DNA of 64,000 nt from an uncultured Methanosarcinales archaeon (lineage in GTDB: Archaea; Halobacteriota; Methanosarcinia; Methanotrichales; Methanotrichaceae). Below, piece after piece: positions 48,240-55,810 of this stretch. The notes beneath the pieces were generated by a model. It was not told the origin of the DNA, searched no databases, and saw only the letters and a program-made list of their open reading frames with translations. Position 1 is the first letter of the stretch. Every line of letters begins with the position of its first letter. Both the position numbers and the translations under genes were made by a program. Where the stretch lies: NCBI GenBank assembly GCA_903871465.1, contig CAIQHB010000037.1, forward strand, positions 1-64,000, read 5' to 3'.

Positions 48240-49184
48240 ATGGACAAGGCTCTTGAACTGGTCAGGGTACTCGGCCAGAGCGATGACTACTTTGAACGCC
48301 AGAAGGCGGCATGGGCCCTGGTGAATTTGGGTGAAGATGCCGTAGACGACGTTGCCGGTGCCCTGGAGAATGGCGAGTTCTCCGACCTGCGATACAAATC
48401 CGCCTGGGTCCTGGGAAAGACGGGATCCCCCAGAGCCGTGGACTCCCTCTGCCGGGCCATGCTCAGCGATCCGGATCATGTAGTTCGCGAATGGTGCGCG
48501 GCCGCGCTGGAGGCGATAGGAAACCAGGATGCAGTACAACCGCTGGTCCTGGCCATGAAGCGAGACAGCTCCAAAGATGTGCGTCTGCGAGCGGCAATGG
48601 CACTGCGGAGCCTGAAGGCCGCGGAGGCGCTTCGAGAACTATTGAGCTATAGCGAACCCGAGACACGGGGCATGGCGGTGACTGGTCTCGCAAAAATTGG
48701 AGACATTGAATCACTGGCGGATGTGGCCAGGCTGCTGAACGACGAAGACCCTGATGTTCGGCGCAGAGCTGCGGCATACATGGCTGAATTCAATTGCAAT
48801 GAGTCATTGAACTACCTATCTCAAGCGGTGCAGGACAGCGAGTCAACGGTGAGGTGCGAAGCGCTGAAGTCCCTAGGAAAGATGAAAAGCGAGAGGGCCT
48901 GCAGTCTAGCGCTTCCAGCGCTGAAAGACGAAGACTGGCAGGTTCGCATCACTGCCGTGACAACGTTGGGCGAGATCGGCCACAACAAAGCGCTTGATCA
49001 TCTGGTCGAATTCATGTTTAGCCAGGACGACGAGGAGATCCGGGCCTGGGCAGCCTGGAGCCTGGGCGAGATTGCCGACGAGAGGGCGGTGGAACCATTA
49101 AAGCTGGCTTACAAGACCTGCCCCACGGAAGTGATGAAGAAAGCCAAGGACTCGCTGACGGAGGTCTTCAAGAAGGAGGTATAG
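48240..49184 (+). CDS. HEAT-repeat (PBS-lyase-like) protein
   Basis: A 314-aa all-helical repeat protein with about nine HEAT units, e.g. RQKAAWALVNLGEDAVDDV, RYKSAWVLGKTGSPRAVDSL, REWCAAALEAIGNQDAVQPL, RAWAAWSLGEIADERAVEPL. Likely a protein-protein scaffold. Scaffolds of this kind are common in methanogens and bind Fe-S, phycobilin-like or corrinoid proteins in some cases; no partner is evident here. Confidence 0.85.
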   Translation: MDKALELVRVLGQSDDYFERQKAAWALVNLGEDAVDDVAGALENGEFSDLRYKSAWVLGKTGSPRAVDSLCRAMLSDPDHVVREWCAAALEAIGNQDAVQPLVLAMKRDSSKDVRLRAAMALRSLKAAEALRELLSYSEPETRGMAVTGLAKIGDIESLADVARLLNDEDPDVRRRAAAYMAEFNCNESLNYLSQAVQDSESTVRCEALKSLGKMKSERACSLALPALKDEDWQVRITAVTTLGEIGHNKALDHLVEFMFSQDDEEIRAWAAWSLGEIADERAVEPLKLAYKTCPTEVMKKAKDSLTEVFKKEV

Positions 49185-49395
49185 AGTTATGTCTGTAGCA
49201 ATATAATATATATTATATTTTTTAATGCATTATATCAAAAAATTTTATGATTAAGAATGCAACACTCGAAGCGTGCCACCTGGAGCTATTACCTGAATTC
49301 CCCGTTGGTGGAAAATAAACATCGCTCCTCCGCGTCCCTGGTTTTCTTCCTCGATCCGGTTAGTTTCAGGAGTTCTAACAGGCAAATGACGCAAA

Positions 49396-49417
49396 CGAGT
49401 TGTCATGTCACAACTCG
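49396..49417. terminator. Hairpin between the HEAT-protein and large-propeller genes
   Basis: CGAGTTGT (49396-49403) pairs with ACAACTCG (49410-49417) around a 6-nt loop, an 8-bp perfect stem. The two flanking genes converge here (the plus gene ends at 49184, the minus gene at 49471), so it may end either transcript. It lacks a strong T-run. Confidence 0.35.
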
Positions 49418-49470
49418 CTTGCTCTAACGAAGGGAACTGATCTGCCCCATGCCTGGGTTAAAATTTCATA

Positions 49471-52400
49471 CTAATCCTCGTCTTCCTCATCTTGAAAATG
49501 GTCGTTCGCACTCCCCTCACAACAACACTCCGTATGGTGCTTGGTGCAACAGCCCTTCTGGCAATCATCGCAGCACTTTTTGCAGCAACACTCATCCCAA
49601 ATGGTGTAAGCCATTACATCCAGAGTCTTAACCGGAGTGATCGGGTCGTCGCTCATTATGACCAGCTCACAACATACTGGACATTTTTCGGTGGCTTTGT
49701 ACCTGACCACAACGCTTAGACACGAGCCGGGATGCAGAGTCGCCGGGAATGGATTGTTGATCAACTTCCAGTGACGGTTCTTGCGCTTGAACGCAACGCT
49801 AGTCACGTGCAGGTCGCAATCGCCGACGTTGCAGATGGAGATTGTGCGCTCGGCGCGGCAGCAGGCCCTTACTCCGCCGAAGCACATCGAGCCCGTCACG
49901 GCGAGCTTGCCGGAGGGCGCGAAGCCTGAGAAGGTCACGGTGTGTGGACTGGTTGGATCATCGCTACTGATCGTGACCTTGGCGGTCTTCGATCCGAAGC
50001 TAGCTGGCTGGAAGCGGATGGGCACTTCGAGAGAGCCTCCAGCCGCGATCGTGATAGGATACACCGAAACTTGCGGCACAACAAACTCGCTCTCCGACGA
50101 AGCGATATTGGTGATAGACAGCGGACACGGTGCGCTGTTGAAGAGGGTTAGCGGCTCGTCCACAAACGATCCAATGCAGATCTTGCCAAAGTTGCCGCCA
50201 TCTGGGATCAACTGATTCAGGCGAGGCGCCGGCACGAATCCAGACACATCCACCGTCCTGGCACCGGCCGGGTCGTTGCTCAGCAGAGTGAGAGTGGCTG
50301 ATTTGGCACCGAAACTGGACGGTTGGAAGCGAATGACCAGGTCGATTGATCCGCCGGAGCTTACAATCAATGGGTAAGAAACGACACTTGGCGTCTTGAA
50401 TTCCAGCGAGGACGAGATTATGTTGAATATGGAAAGCTGGCAGGATCCAGTGTTGTTGATCGTCAACTTCTCTTCCGCAAAGGAACCCAGGCAGACGCTG
50501 CCCAGATTGCCGCTGTCCGCGATAGCTGCTGCAAGAGTTGCTGTCCCGAGCAGACCTGTTGCCGAGAGATCAACGAAAGGTGCCGTGGGATCGTTGCTGA
50601 TGATGCGGATGGTTGCGGTTTCAGGCCCGCTAGCCGCCACTGGATCGTACACGACCGTGAACTCGATATGCTCGCCCGGCGCGACGACCAGCGGTGTACC
50701 GGGTGTAGAAAGCACCGAGAAGCTAGTAGAGCCCATGAGACGCTGGACGCTTTTGATGACGAGATCCTGGGCGCCGACGTTGAAGATATCCAGGGTTAAG
50801 TAATTCGGCCCCTGGCAAATGGTTCCGAATGCCAGGTTGTCTTCGAGACTCACCGCGATGGAGGGGCCAGCTGGCTTGACGAAAGCGAACACGCCGCGGC
50901 CATAGGTGGCGGCGCGCAGCATGCCGTTCCTGAGCACCAGGTCGATAACCGGAACACGAGGGAAATGAATGTCATCATGCACCGACCACAAAGATCCGCC
51001 GTCTACAGAGCGCAGCACGCCGAGCTCAGTGCCCACATAAATAGCACTGGGTATATCCGAGCCGTCCAGAGCGATGGAGCTGAAGGGAAGATTGAGTGCA
51101 GGCGAGATATCCGTCCAGGAGGAGGCCCCGATGCTGGTGCGGAAGACGTGTCCGATGTTCCCGGGTCCAAGGTTGAACCCACCAAGAACGGCGTAGATCA
51201 CGGTGGGATCGTTGGGATCGTAGATCGCGCGCGCAACGTTCCGACTAGGGAGGTTCCGGGTTATGTTGGTGAAAATCACTCCCGAGGGCAGACCTACGGT
51301 GGCGGCTAGTGCATTGGTTGAGACGAATACCTGGTTGCCAACTGCGATAACAACATTGTTCCCATTGGTCCTGGCCACATCTATGTTGCCGGTTCCGCTG
51401 AAGGGGGACAGAATGCGCCAGGTTGCTCCGCCATCCCTGCTCTGCCACAGGTTCTGATTGCCACTTACATAGATAATACCAGCAGCGCTGGGGTCGGTGG
51501 TGATGGGAAAGAGACCGCAAGCTTGATCGCTTGTCGTACCCCACGGCGTAATGTCCTGGGTCGATGGGACCGTGGGTGAGAAATCTGTGCCGTCCGCATT
51601 GGAGACCCACACTCGCGTGCAGGGCGCCGGCCAAAAGCCACTTGTCCCGTAGACGCGGCCCACGGTCACTCCGTCATAAACGATATCCCAGCCATCGCCA
51701 CCCTGAGGACTGTCCCAGCCTGGTGCAGCAACTCCTGCGGTGGTCTGCAATCCGTCATCCTGCGGAGCACCCACAGTGACGCTCCCAGTGGCATCAGGCC
51801 TTATGTCGATGTTATAGAAAAGGCCGGTCTGCAGGCCGCCGTCGTTGAGCGAAGTCCAGGTCACCCCTGCATCGATAGACCTGAAGATTCCGCCATCGTT
51901 GCCACTATAGATGATCGAAGGTGTGGGACTGAGCTGTCGGACAAACGCCCAGGCATGACAGTCCGCATGCGGGACGGGCATGGTGGTAAAGCTTGCTCCA
52001 GAGTTTGTGGACCTGGCCATACCAACGGCACCGAAACAGATGATGTCGTTGACCCCGTCACCAGGAGAGGCTGGATCTACTGCCATGTGGAAGCTGTACC
52101 CGCCCTGAGTGTTGCCAGGCATTCCGGTGGCGGTCTGCTGTGTCCACGACCCGCCCTGATTCGTGCTCCGGAAGACTCCGATCGGATCAGGCGCACCACC
52201 CGTTCCCTGAAGGCTCACATAGAGCACTTGCACGCCCCCAGGGTTGGGCGGCAAGGTAGGCGGAGCAATGTCGACAATGACTTTTCCAAAACCTGCAGGT
52301 GCAGGACCTACCGCTGCGGATACTGCAGCAGTGGTGCCGCTCAAAATCTGTGTCCAGTTCTGCCCACCGTCGTTGGACCTGAAAACACCACGTCCGGAAA

Positions 52401-53007
52401 TGCCGGAGTACAGGATGCGATTGCCAGCCGGAGAAGAAGCGTCCAGCACGAGAGAGCGTGCGTCTCCGCCACTATTGGCGCCCTGCGTCCAATTGAGGCC
52501 GGCATCGGTAGAGCGGAAGACCCCACTCCCCGAGGCCAGATAGAGGATGTTGCTGTTGGCAGGATCGACTATGACGACATTTATAAACTGGTTTACGAAC
52601 TTTTTGGCTGTGGTGGCTGCGTTGCCCGTATTGCCGGAGGGGTAACCGGAACCGAGACGGATCCAACTGGCGCCTCCGTCGATCGATTTGAACAGACCCG
52701 CCCCACCTCGTCCGGGATTGGCAATGCGTCCGCTGGTCCCGATATACAAGATGTCGTGATTGTTGGGGTCGATGGCCAGGCCGCCAGGCTCGCCTATTCC
52801 AAGCTCTATCTGGCGGTCGAAAATCGGAGTCCAACTGTTGCCCCCGTCAATGCTGCGCCATACACCTCCGGCGGCCGTACCGATGTAGATGACGTTGGAG
52901 TTTGAGGGGCTGATGCCGATGGTTGAAACCAACCCGTTGACACGATTGCTGCCCTGATTCATTGGGCTAGGGCCGATGGGAGCCCACACTGTCCCCTGGA
53001 GGGTCAT
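49471..53007 (-). CDS. Giant beta-propeller/ASH protein with Cys-rich tail
   Basis: 1178 aa with no signal peptide. Residues up to about 720 hold at least ten sortilin/BNR-like Asp-box repeats (GGVWRSIDGGNSWTPI, GLFKSIDGGASWIRLG, GVFRSTDAGLNWTQG, GIFRSIDAGVTWTSL), which form a propeller. Then come three full ASH/choice-of-anchor-D domains and one shorter one (about 730-1110), each with NVG/NTG and an SNDP turn. The last 50 residues contain CCCKKCCDDCQKGCC and HHTECCC, i.e. about 11 Cys plus two His, and end in acidic DEEDED. The start overlaps the stop of a small charged protein (ATGA). Codon use and GC differ somewhat from the core genes; transfer is possible. Confidence 0.75.
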   Translation of the reverse strand: MTLQGTVWAPIGPSPMNQGSNRVNGLVSTIGISPSNSNVIYIGTAAGGVWRSIDGGNSWTPIFDRQIELGIGEPGGLAIDPNNHDILYIGTSGRIANPGRGGAGLFKSIDGGASWIRLGSGYPSGNTGNAATTAKKFVNQFINVVIVDPANSNILYLASGSGVFRSTDAGLNWTQGANSGGDARSLVLDASSPAGNRILYSGISGRGVFRSNDGGQNWTQILSGTTAAVSAAVGPAPAGFGKVIVDIAPPTLPPNPGGVQVLYVSLQGTGGAPDPIGVFRSTNQGGSWTQQTATGMPGNTQGGYSFHMAVDPASPGDGVNDIICFGAVGMARSTNSGASFTTMPVPHADCHAWAFVRQLSPTPSIIYSGNDGGIFRSIDAGVTWTSLNDGGLQTGLFYNIDIRPDATGSVTVGAPQDDGLQTTAGVAAPGWDSPQGGDGWDIVYDGVTVGRVYGTSGFWPAPCTRVWVSNADGTDFSPTVPSTQDITPWGTTSDQACGLFPITTDPSAAGIIYVSGNQNLWQSRDGGATWRILSPFSGTGNIDVARTNGNNVVIAVGNQVFVSTNALAATVGLPSGVIFTNITRNLPSRNVARAIYDPNDPTVIYAVLGGFNLGPGNIGHVFRTSIGASSWTDISPALNLPFSSIALDGSDIPSAIYVGTELGVLRSVDGGSLWSVHDDIHFPRVPVIDLVLRNGMLRAATYGRGVFAFVKPAGPSIAVSLEDNLAFGTICQGPNYLTLDIFNVGAQDLVIKSVQRLMGSTSFSVLSTPGTPLVVAPGEHIEFTVVYDPVAASGPETATIRIISNDPTAPFVDLSATGLLGTATLAAAIADSGNLGSVCLGSFAEEKLTINNTGSCQLSIFNIISSSLEFKTPSVVSYPLIVSSGGSIDLVIRFQPSSFGAKSATLTLLSNDPAGARTVDVSGFVPAPRLNQLIPDGGNFGKICIGSFVDEPLTLFNSAPCPLSITNIASSESEFVVPQVSVYPITIAAGGSLEVPIRFQPASFGSKTAKVTISSDDPTSPHTVTFSGFAPSGKLAVTGSMCFGGVRACCRAERTISICNVGDCDLHVTSVAFKRKNRHWKLINNPFPATLHPGSCLSVVVRYKATEKCPVCCELVIMSDDPITPVKTLDVMAYTIWDECCCKKCCDDCQKGCCTKHHTECCCEGSANDHFQDEEDED

Positions 53008-53315
53008 GTCAGATCCTCCTTGTCCTCTGCATCATCGGCCATAGGTCTCGCTTCCGGCGGCTTGAGAGGCTTCTGGGCAGGCGGCAGCGTCACGTCTGTT
53101 GGCGTCCGCATTACTGATCCTGGTAGTTTCTGCCATTCCTCTAGCGCTCTCGTATACGCATCCATTGTCGGAGGCGCTCCACCTTCCAGGCGCTTCGCAA
53201 CGATTTCCTCATGTACCACTCTCTCCCTGCCCTTGCCTGTCGGCCCTTGGTGGTGCCGCTCCTCATCCTCATCATGGTCCTTTCGCTTAGGCTTGGAGTC
53301 GCCGGAATTCTTCAT
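53004..53315 (-). CDS. Small charged protein coupled to the giant propeller gene
   Basis: From ATG 53315, chosen because AGAAGGTG lies about 5 nt before it, about 103 aa. It is highly charged (KPKRKDHDEDEERHHQGPTG), with a short helical middle (DAYTRALEEWQKLPG) and a proline-rich end (LPPAQKPLKPPEARPMADD). The stop overlaps the ATG of the 1178-aa gene, so expression is coupled. It may be a disordered partner or chaperone of the big protein; this is inference. Confidence 0.55.
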   Translation of the reverse strand: MKNSGDSKPKRKDHDEDEERHHQGPTGKGRERVVHEEIVAKRLEGGAPPTMDAYTRALEEWQKLPGSVMRTPTDVTLPPAQKPLKPPEARPMADDAEDKEDLT

Positions 53316-53882
53316 TATGACACCTTCTTTCTGCTTATTCATCGATGGATGTAGCGTTATTTGTCGTCGCTCTGCTTGTCGAATTGATCGCGATACTGCA
53401 ATTTGTATATCCATTATATTCTTCTGCGATACTATTTAATTTTACCGAGGAGGATTACTATTAACCTCTTATTTTGGGCAGCGCTTTATAAATACTGTAT
53501 AAAGCCCCAAGATTTTTGGCGGTTTTTAGGAATCCGCCGAGATTTCAGACCGGGTGTGTAGTCCCGAAACTCTCAGAACTACACAAGATTTCAGACCTGG
53601 AATGATATCCGCTTAAGTGGCATCAATACGCCAACAATTGTGCATTATAGGTGTTTGCATTAGTACTCGTCTAATACTATTAATACTATTTTTTCCAAAA
53701 TCTAAGATCATGCAGTCTATATTTGATCTGAGAACCGATGAAACTTTCGAAGATAGAATATGAAATTTTTTATTATATTTATCGTAAACAAAAAGATTTA
53801 TTAGTTTGTAAGAATGCCTGAGTTTTAAGCATATAAGAAGAGCGTAAACAACATAGGACTGTGACTTTGGGAGGACCCTATA
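53316..53882. other. Intergenic region upstream of the propeller operon and pit gene
   Basis: Divergent promoter region of about 570 bp. It contains the repeat cluster at 53540-53597 and a TATA-like AAGCATATAAGAAG (about 53828-53841) plus GGGAGG before ATG 53883 of the phosphate permease. The frame of the 53004 gene is also open upstream to 53414. No gene is recognised. Confidence 0.45.
53540..53597. repeat. Direct repeat flanking a hairpin
   Basis: AGATTTCAGACC occurs at 53540-53551 and 53586-53597. Between them TGTGTAGT (53555-53562) pairs with ACTACACA (53578-53585), giving an 8-bp stem with a 15-nt loop. The unit could be a regulatory site, or a short repeat element. Confidence 0.55.
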
Positions 53883-54847
53883 ATGACAAGTCTTTTTTCC
53901 ATATCAGCTCCTGTTGCACTAGGATTGGCCATAATGTTCGTTATGGCTTTTGCAGAAGGAGCCAACGATATCTCAAAAGTAGTATCAACTTTAGTCGGAA
54001 GTGGCATAACGACCTATCGAAAGGCTATATTTTTTGGAACATTTTGCACAGCCATCGGCGCTTTAGCAGCCATTGTTTTAGGAAAAGCGGTGGCAGTGAC
54101 TCTTACAACAGGTATCATCACCCCTACTGCATCCGCCAGCACTGCCTACGCCCTTGCTGCTTTGATTGGTGCTATTAGTTGGACGCTCCTGGCAACGAGA
54201 ATCGGTATGCCTATCTCCACATCTCATGCCATAGTGGGGTCGATCGTCGTTTTGGGCGTCATTGCCTTCGGGCCCGGGCAGGTCCACTGGAATATCATCG
54301 TGGAGGACGTCACTCTGCCCATGGTAGCCAGTCCCTTAATCGCTATTCCTATGGCACTAGCTCTCTTCCTTATCTTTGAACCATTGTCCCGAAAATTCTC
54401 GCTGGCCACTTCGCATTGGGTTTCTTCAGGAGCTGCAAGTTTGGCCGAGGGGTGAACGATGCTCCAAAGATTGCAGCTCTTGGTGTATTTTTTTCCCTGA
54501 CTAGCGAAAGTGGATGGTCTTCGATTCCAACAACGCTGCTCTTTTCAATTGTGGCCCTCGGGATGAGCATGGGTAGCATCTTTGCCGGCCTAAAGGTTAC
54601 AAAAACCTTAGCAGAACACGTAACTCCTATGGACAATGCTGAGGGCTTAGCTGCCAATGCGACCACTGCCTTTTTGCTTCTATTTGCTTCTGAATTGGGT
54701 TTACCTGTTTCGGTCACTTATGTGATCGGATCGTCCGTCATTGGTTTAGGCGTGAGGAGAGCTATCAAGGATGTGTCATGGAGGACTGTAAAAAGGATGA
54801 TACTATCGTGGGTTGTGACGGTTCCTGCAAGTGGCTTTATTGTATAG
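53883..54847 (+). pseudogene. PiT-type phosphate permease split by a frameshift
   Basis: Inorganic phosphate transporter (PiT). The first frame (53883-54455) has EGANDISKVVSTLVGSGITT and four to six membrane segments, then ends SSGAASLAEG-stop. The second frame (54416-54847) continues GVNDAPKIAALGVFFSLTSE, the second PiT signature, to FIV. Joining them needs one extra G in the G4 run at 54449-54452 (GAGGGG TGA to GAG GGG GTG AAC). So it is a one-base deletion, a sequencing error in a short homopolymer, or a programmed -1 frameshift. The two halves together make about 320 aa, normal for archaeal PiT. Confidence 0.8.
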
Positions 54848-55222
54848 GTCTTTCTTCGTTATAAATCATATAGGGTCTTAGGAATAAATGGAGAGGGGTC
54901 TGGTTATGGAAGCAATTTTAGTATCTCCCAATGGATATACGGCCTCGCCCTTATTAGCTCTGGTAATAAGCCTTCAATGATTGGACTTGAAACCTCATCT
55001 ACTTGACGATTACTTGCACAACTTGATCTCCTCAGTGAATTTTCTTCGCAATTGCGGAGGAAGGGTTCCAAACCATATTTATAGCTCGGCCGTTATCCTG
55101 GAGAATCTTAACAGATCCACTATATTGATCCACCACGACTTTTGAGCGAAAATCGTTACAGGCAATTTTATTCCACGAAGATTGCTGCAAGGTGCGCCTC
55201 TGCCGTTTCACTTTTTAACCTT
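54848..55222. other. 375-bp intergenic region after the pit gene
   Basis: A 24-codon ORF (54906-54980, starting MEAILVSPNGYTASPL) follows GGAGAGGGG; its frame is short and the family is unknown. The rest shows no recognised gene or RNA. It separates the pit gene from the convergent YkgJ-like gene. Confidence 0.35.
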
Positions 55223-55810
55223 TTAGATCGAATCCAATATGCTCTTGAGATCTTTTTTGGCCGCTCTTACCTCTTCCGGATCGACCGCTGCAGAGTCCAA
55301 TTGTCCCTTGCGAGCCTCTTCTACAACCTCAGTCAGGATCTTCATCGTCTCCACCGATCCCGGACAGGACTCGTTAACCTTGACCTGATTCTCGGACCCG
55401 TAGATTCCGAGGAACGGAAAAATGCGACATGACCAGGGACGCAGCTCATAAATCTTGCAGCCTTTCGCCCCGGCATCATAAAATTTGCAGGGAAGGATAT
55501 GCTTGAAGTCCAGGACGCCTGGGCGGTCGGGGTCTGGAATGGTGTACTTCTTGAGGGCCTTGTCGATGGGAATCTTGAGGTGCTTTGCCAGGAGGGCCGC
55601 GTCCTCGGGCAGCAGCCTGATGGGGTCGCCAGTTGTGCAGCATGTCCCGCACCTGTGGCATTTGAGAATAATGTGGCAGGCCATGCGGACGTAATCAACC
55701 GAGGTGTATTTTGGTGCATCCAACTCCCTGAATACCTGTTCGTCCGTCAGTGCCGTGGCCTTGAGGAGCAAAAGGGCGATTCTTTTAGGGTCCTTTTCTG
55801 ATTCCATCAT
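55223..55810 (-). CDS. YkgJ-family cysteine cluster protein
   Basis: A 195-aa protein with the CxxCGxCC-type signature LKCHRCGTCCTTGDP (about 50-64) and the later PCKFYDAGAKGCKIYELRPWSCRIFPF (given in part). The cysteines fit a metal (Zn or Fe-S) site. The family has no established enzyme function. It is divergent from engB with a 56-bp gap. Confidence 0.8.
   Translation of the reverse strand: MMESEKDPKRIALLLLKATALTDEQVFRELDAPKYTSVDYVRMACHIILKCHRCGTCCTTGDPIRLLPEDAALLAKHLKIPIDKALKKYTIPDPDRPGVLDFKHILPCKFYDAGAKGCKIYELRPWSCRIFPFLGIYGSENQVKVNESCPGSVETMKILTEVVEEARKGQLDSAAVDPEEVRAAKKDLKSILDSI

Follow-up and report, generated by a model that had tools for sequence, protein, structure and literature searches.

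Tandem arrangements of two Asp-box propeller rings have been described as type 3 Asp-box propellers (Quistgaard and Thirup 2009, PMC2716378). GH74 xyloglucanases (OXG-RCBH, PDB 1sqj/2ebs; 6p2k) possess a tandem of seven-bladed Asp-box propellers, Vps10 receptors such as sortilin combine a single ten-bladed Asp-box ring with 10CC and a membrane anchor, and the F510_1955 family glycosylhydrolases (NF045728) are short single Asp-box propellers. Choice-of-anchor D proteins (NF012200), to be considered here together with ASH/HYDIN-like immunoglobulin (Ig) domains, carry a signal peptide and a C-terminal surface anchor, while metallothioneins are small free proteins with dense CC and CCC clusters. 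We analyzed a stretch of 64,000 nucleotides (the window) on contig C37 of the 3.13 Mb genome (81 contigs) of a methanogen-like archaeon, which encodes on its minus strand a protein with likenesses to all of these. This protein of 1178 amino acids, called BIG (49471-53007, stop codon included), is predicted to join a tandem of two seven-bladed GH74-like propellers to four ASH domains and a C-terminal cluster of Cys and His residues, and directly upstream of its gene lies that of a charged protein of 103 amino acids, called SMALL (53004-53315, minus strand). An initial annotation of the window had recognized no described system with this layout, and indeed none matched the pair in Pfam, NCBIfam, PADLOC, PHROGs, PDB, or the literature, in which we found no account of the BIG architecture.

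The BIG and SMALL genes and their orthologs

The stop codon of SMALL and the start codon of BIG overlap as ATGA, and this arrangement, with SMALL directly upstream of BIG, was found in all seven orthologous loci (the window and six others); the coupling to a small charged protein that had been read from the window proved exact to the nucleotide. A Shine-Dalgarno-like site for BIG (AAGGAGG, 53015-53021, minus strand) lies within the 3' end of SMALL, and an in-frame stop codon stands eight codons upstream of the BIG start. Since a similar site (AAGGTG) precedes the ATG of SMALL at 53315 and its orthologs begin there too, this position is most likely the start of SMALL, rather than that of an alternative longer reading of 136 amino acids from 53414.

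Orthologs were sought in one genome per species, and collections were scanned with short peptide patterns, which may miss distant members. Six full-length relatives of BIG were found, their best segments being 49-67% identical to it: two in Desulfobacterales metagenome-assembled genomes (MAGs; L004 and L008), one in a Bacillota MAG (L007), whose BIG gene is frameshifted, possibly by an assembly error, and three in Ruegeria (L005, L006, and L009). With the window protein, the set comprises seven orthologs in four phyla, three of them from a single genus and three from MAGs. The ratio of nonsynonymous to synonymous substitution rates (dN/dS) of BIG was 0.04-0.06 within Ruegeria and 0.16 between the two Desulfobacterales, and that of SMALL 0.05-0.21, values that indicate purifying selection on both proteins. 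Judged from the seven orthologous pairs, BIG and SMALL evidently form a real two-gene unit.

BIG was not found in 60 relatives of the host archaeon, and a profile of SMALL matched only in genomes that bear BIG, namely in 1 of 393 genomes of the archaeal phylum (the host of the window, with none among the 392 others), 2 of 291 in the order of the Desulfobacterales, 1 of 43 in the phylum of the Bacillota MAG, and 2 of 298 in the family of the Ruegeria. In the tree, the seven orthologs form one clade (support 100/100) in which the archaeon is nested among bacteria. These comparisons indicate that the pair is a rare unit moved horizontally between archaea and several bacterial phyla. Because SMALL so far occurs only alongside BIG, it serves as a specific marker, and a cultured host, Ruegeria sp. 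ANG-S4, exists. No third gene is conserved near the pair, as the small membrane proteins and MFS transporters found there are not orthologs of each other across the lineages; the transporters that neighbor the pair in Ruegeria and in Bacillota, for instance, are no more than 24-26% alike. In the two Desulfobacterales MAGs, a predicted membrane protein of 73 amino acids is encoded just upstream of SMALL (L004:1316-1537 and L008:3686-3907); it is absent from the other lineages.

Alignment of the SMALL orthologs revealed a conserved core at residues 31-74 (53094-53225, minus strand; vHEEI..kRLeGG..PT..AYaRALE.WqkLPGS..RpPTD) between variable charged flanks, and hydropathy analysis detected no hydrophobic segment in the protein. 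SMALL had no match in plasmids or viral contigs. That the own-genome paralog or distant relatives might carry it fused to their N-terminal end was rejected for lack of hidden Markov model (HMM) support. On a Gemmatirosa plasmid, a charged open reading frame (ORF) of 61 amino acids (L040:3498-3683) overlaps the start of a distant signal-less propeller gene; this layout is that of SMALL and BIG, with no sequence similarity to SMALL.

Domains of BIG

In agreement with the estimate of about ten Asp boxes in the initial annotation, the pattern S-x-[DN]-x-G-x-x-[WF] was counted 10 times in BIG, compared with a mean of 0.09 and a maximum of 2 in 1000 shuffles. For residues 1-715 (50863-53007, minus strand), an AlphaFold2 (AF2) model built with 16 sequences had a predicted local distance difference test (pLDDT) score of 79 and a predicted template modeling (pTM) score of 0.84, and the best 25 matches of a Foldseek search of this part against PDB were all GH74 enzymes (best E value 2e-29; template modeling [TM] scores 0.59-0.65). 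According to the model, the propeller is a tandem of two seven-bladed GH74-like rings, not a ten-bladed sortilin ring, and ten Asp boxes therefore do not imply a single ten-bladed ring. BIG shares the Asp-box propeller with sortilin and has a partial Pfam match to PF15902, but its propeller is followed by ASH domains, and no single ten-bladed propeller with 10CC was among its 50 best structural matches. The F510_1955 family has the Asp-box propeller in common with BIG as well, yet the 121 bits scored by BIG are below the curated cut-off of 175. GH74 enzymes, in turn, have neither the ASH string nor a Cys cluster of the kind found in BIG. A viral structure library held nothing close across the whole propeller part, and a phage origin was rejected, given that viral contigs contained no relatives and only a choice-of-anchor D match was obtained, in Erwinia phages and one PHROG.

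The propeller is followed by four stretches matching ASH or choice-of-anchor D domains (residues 716-1136; 49600-50862, minus strand), all far above the curated cut-offs, as had been expected from the sequence (NF012200, 120 bits against 45; PF22544, 96 against 25.5; PF15780, 83 against 27). Domains 2 to 4 hold Cys pairs. In contrast to choice-of-anchor D proteins, BIG has neither signal peptide nor surface anchor, its tail being rich in Cys and His and acidic at the end. The cluster comprises 11 Cys (1140, 1141, 1142, 1145, 1146, 1149, 1153, 1154, 1161, 1162, and 1163) and 2 His (1157 and 1158) within 24 residues (1140-1163; 49519-49590, minus strand), and the acidic C-terminal end follows at residues 1164-1178 (49474-49518, minus strand), much as the initial annotation had it.

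Similar Cys-rich tails with acidic ends were present in the Desulfobacterales and Bacillota orthologs (e.g. GCDDCRNGCCEKHHESCC and CCCKLCCERCREGRWCSCRHKACC), whereas the three Ruegeria proteins have no Cys tail; instead, their last ASH domain contains an insert with CDSCGCDCDCGCDCGC. The cluster is thus C-terminal in four of the seven orthologs and relocated in three. As it has been retained while its position has not, a bulk thiol property, such as metal binding or linking, would be favored over a precise site. Its dense CC and CCC groups, with CxC runs in Ruegeria, resemble those of metallothioneins, but here they are a tail or an insert of a large protein and not a small free one.

Signal peptides were judged by Kyte-Doolittle hydropathy. 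The first 60 residues of BIG contain no hydrophobic segment (the best 15-residue mean is 1.07), and all seven orthologs are without a signal peptide, sharing the start M-x-(L)-x-GTVW-x-P-(I/L)-GPSP. Together with the upstream in-frame stop codon, these findings bear out the absence of a signal peptide that had been noted in the window protein.

Ancestry and possible roles of the pair

Among 395 Desulfobacterota genomes, one cousin of BIG was found (L083, in genome G1269), with 32% identity over BIG residues 3-1135 (E value 4e-124). L083 has the propeller, the order of ASH domains, and the ASH Cys pairs of BIG, but it differs from BIG in its signal-like N-terminus and longer C-terminus and has neither a coupled SMALL nor a Cys tail. 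Its N-terminus is strongly hydrophobic (2.73) and ends just before the residues where BIG begins; the N-termini of Bacteroidota double-propeller relatives are likewise signal-like. In the tree, L083 is sister to the ortholog clade with moderate support (85/87). Since this nearest outgroup has a signal-like N-terminus, the parts of BIG appear to derive from an exported family. We read these data as indicating that the BIG clade lost its signal peptide, gained SMALL and the thiol cluster, and then spread between phyla. This would represent a natural switch from an exported protein of GH74 fold and choice-of-anchor type to a signal-less form that has a thiol cluster and always comes with the same partner, the whole unit being passed on afterwards between archaea and several bacterial phyla.

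The initial annotation had supposed that its interpretation would fail if close homologs carried a signal peptide and had a known role, or if the tail was not conserved. Orthologs of the same clade are without a signal peptide and have kept the cluster, whereas in L083 the N-terminus is signal-like and the tail is missing. Of the overall interpretation (a cytosolic-looking binding platform with a tail suggestive of metal binding or cross-linking), the unusual conserved layout, the cluster kept in all lineages, and the constant partner have held up, but the parts themselves stem from an exported family. The storage role also suggested there found no support.

The role that we tentatively prefer, with less than even confidence, is that of a binding scaffold inside the cell, equipped with a coupled partner of its own and a cluster for soft metal. 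From the features above, we infer an intracellular place for BIG, its scaffold role, metal binding, and binding between SMALL and BIG. After loss of the signal peptide, the start codon of BIG sits at the would-be mature N-terminus, and the protein would stay inside the cell; its double propeller would provide a ligand-binding face and the ASH string a stalk, while the Cys/His cluster would bind a soft metal or its thiols would link BIG copies together. SMALL, whose translation immediately precedes that of BIG on their shared message, might bind nascent or folded BIG through its core of about 40 residues and act as a dedicated chaperone or adaptor. If SMALL is such an adaptor or chaperone, propeller proteins would have in it a coupled partner of a new kind.

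Several points weigh against this scaffold. The domain types of BIG are typical of exported proteins, and ASH domains 2 to 4 have their Cys pairs nearly unchanged relative to L083, where these are probably disulfides, which fits an oxidizing place better than the cytosol. In addition, the sample is small (seven orthologs, three in one genus), and a full-length AF2 prediction of BIG with six sequences gave a poor model, the usable one being that of residues 1-715.

The same ancestry speaks for the possibility that BIG is still exported by a route that needs no signal peptide of its own, SMALL having taken over the targeting and the Cys tail linking BIG to the surface or its copies to each other. 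SMALL sits exactly at the former signal-peptide position, and the tail is located where choice-of-anchor proteins carry their anchor. However, SMALL lacks a hydrophobic segment, the pair has no conserved transport gene beside it, and we know of no export system common to the methanogen, Desulfobacterales, Bacillota, and Ruegeria that would take BIG. We consider continued export unlikely, though the main alternative; if it holds, a route not yet described would have to exist.

Less probable is that the pair is a horizontally spreading accessory module that is of benefit from time to time, for instance in metal tolerance or defense, rather than a housekeeping scaffold. Its spread is very patchy, with an insertion (described below) in one species only, and short Asp-box propellers occur with DUF1573, copper, or thiol genes in plasmid metal loci. 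Against this, those plasmid loci hold distant relatives only, and neither mobile-element genes nor repeats were found at the insertion. Neither BIG nor SMALL matched PADLOC models, and known anti-phage defense was rejected on this ground.

A bolder proposal, to which we give a still lower probability, regards SMALL as a trans-acting stand-in for the signal peptide. In this view, SMALL would be a translationally coupled adaptor, largely disordered but with a conserved core, that guides BIG either to the exterior or to an assembly within the cell, in archaea and bacteria alike.

It is very unlikely that BIG is a GH74-type glycoside hydrolase, whether intracellular or exported. Its nearest fold is that of GH74, and its sequence matches in PDB are GH74 enzymes. 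Asp35 of OXG-RCBH is one of the two GH74 catalytic residues, the second being Asp465. In the profile alignment, the Asp35 position falls on Ala45 of BIG; the six aligned full-length orthologs all have Ala at this place, and L007 has Val. The absence of this residue makes an enzymatic role improbable.

Finally, lysis could release the pair as cargo or a fiber of an extracellular contractile injection system (eCIS), and the absent signal peptide would then be accounted for. The host genome (PF13699 on contigs C9 and C6, the tube family PF06841 on C9 and C74) and one Ruegeria do contain eCIS genes. However, a search for both families in all seven pair-bearing genomes found PF06841 above cut-off in only two and in neither of the Ruegeria isolates G063 and G066, the pair lies on C37 outside any eCIS locus, and we rejected this delivery as scarcely credible. 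Of the extracellular machine delivered by an unusual route that the initial annotation had allowed for, the contractile injection variant is thus unsupported. The eCIS genes of the host genome (sheath-like, tube, and eCIS_core) occupy at least two places: C9, at about 9,000-36,300 (L069 and L070), C6 (L071), and C74:37285-38725.

Genomic setting and other propeller loci

A HEAT-repeat gene (48240-49184) and a gene for a CxxCxxCC-domain protein (55223-55810) flank the stretch that contains BIG and SMALL (49185-55222). As these two genes are adjacent in three congeners (G004, G012, and G014), the stretch is best explained as an insertion of about 6 kb, a loss common to the three congeners being the less likely alternative. 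It also contains a PHO4-type phosphate transporter gene (53883-54847) that consists of two overlapping frames, lacks the middle of the domain, and looks like a pseudogene. A transposon was rejected in the absence of terminal or flanking repeats, and Rfam detected no RNA element at the locus. In another congener (G006), the ORF adjoining the HEAT gene (L058:765-2699) encodes a different Cys cluster, with 8 Cys in 30 residues.

The host archaeal genome encodes a second signal-less Asp-box propeller, of 1157 amino acids (L035:4180-7653, contig C16). Directly before it lies a small membrane protein (L035:3758-4063; WIE..F...DNGNGSLEW). It resembles the small membrane protein (L038:3395-3622) whose gene precedes that of a propeller, likewise signal-less, on a plasmid of Rhodococcus. 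Short Asp-box propellers are encoded beside DUF1573, DsbE/TlpA, SCO, or copper-related genes on plasmids of Rubrobacter, Jiella, and Rhodopseudomonas (L061, L063, and L064), a hint that this branch may have to do with metals or thiols.

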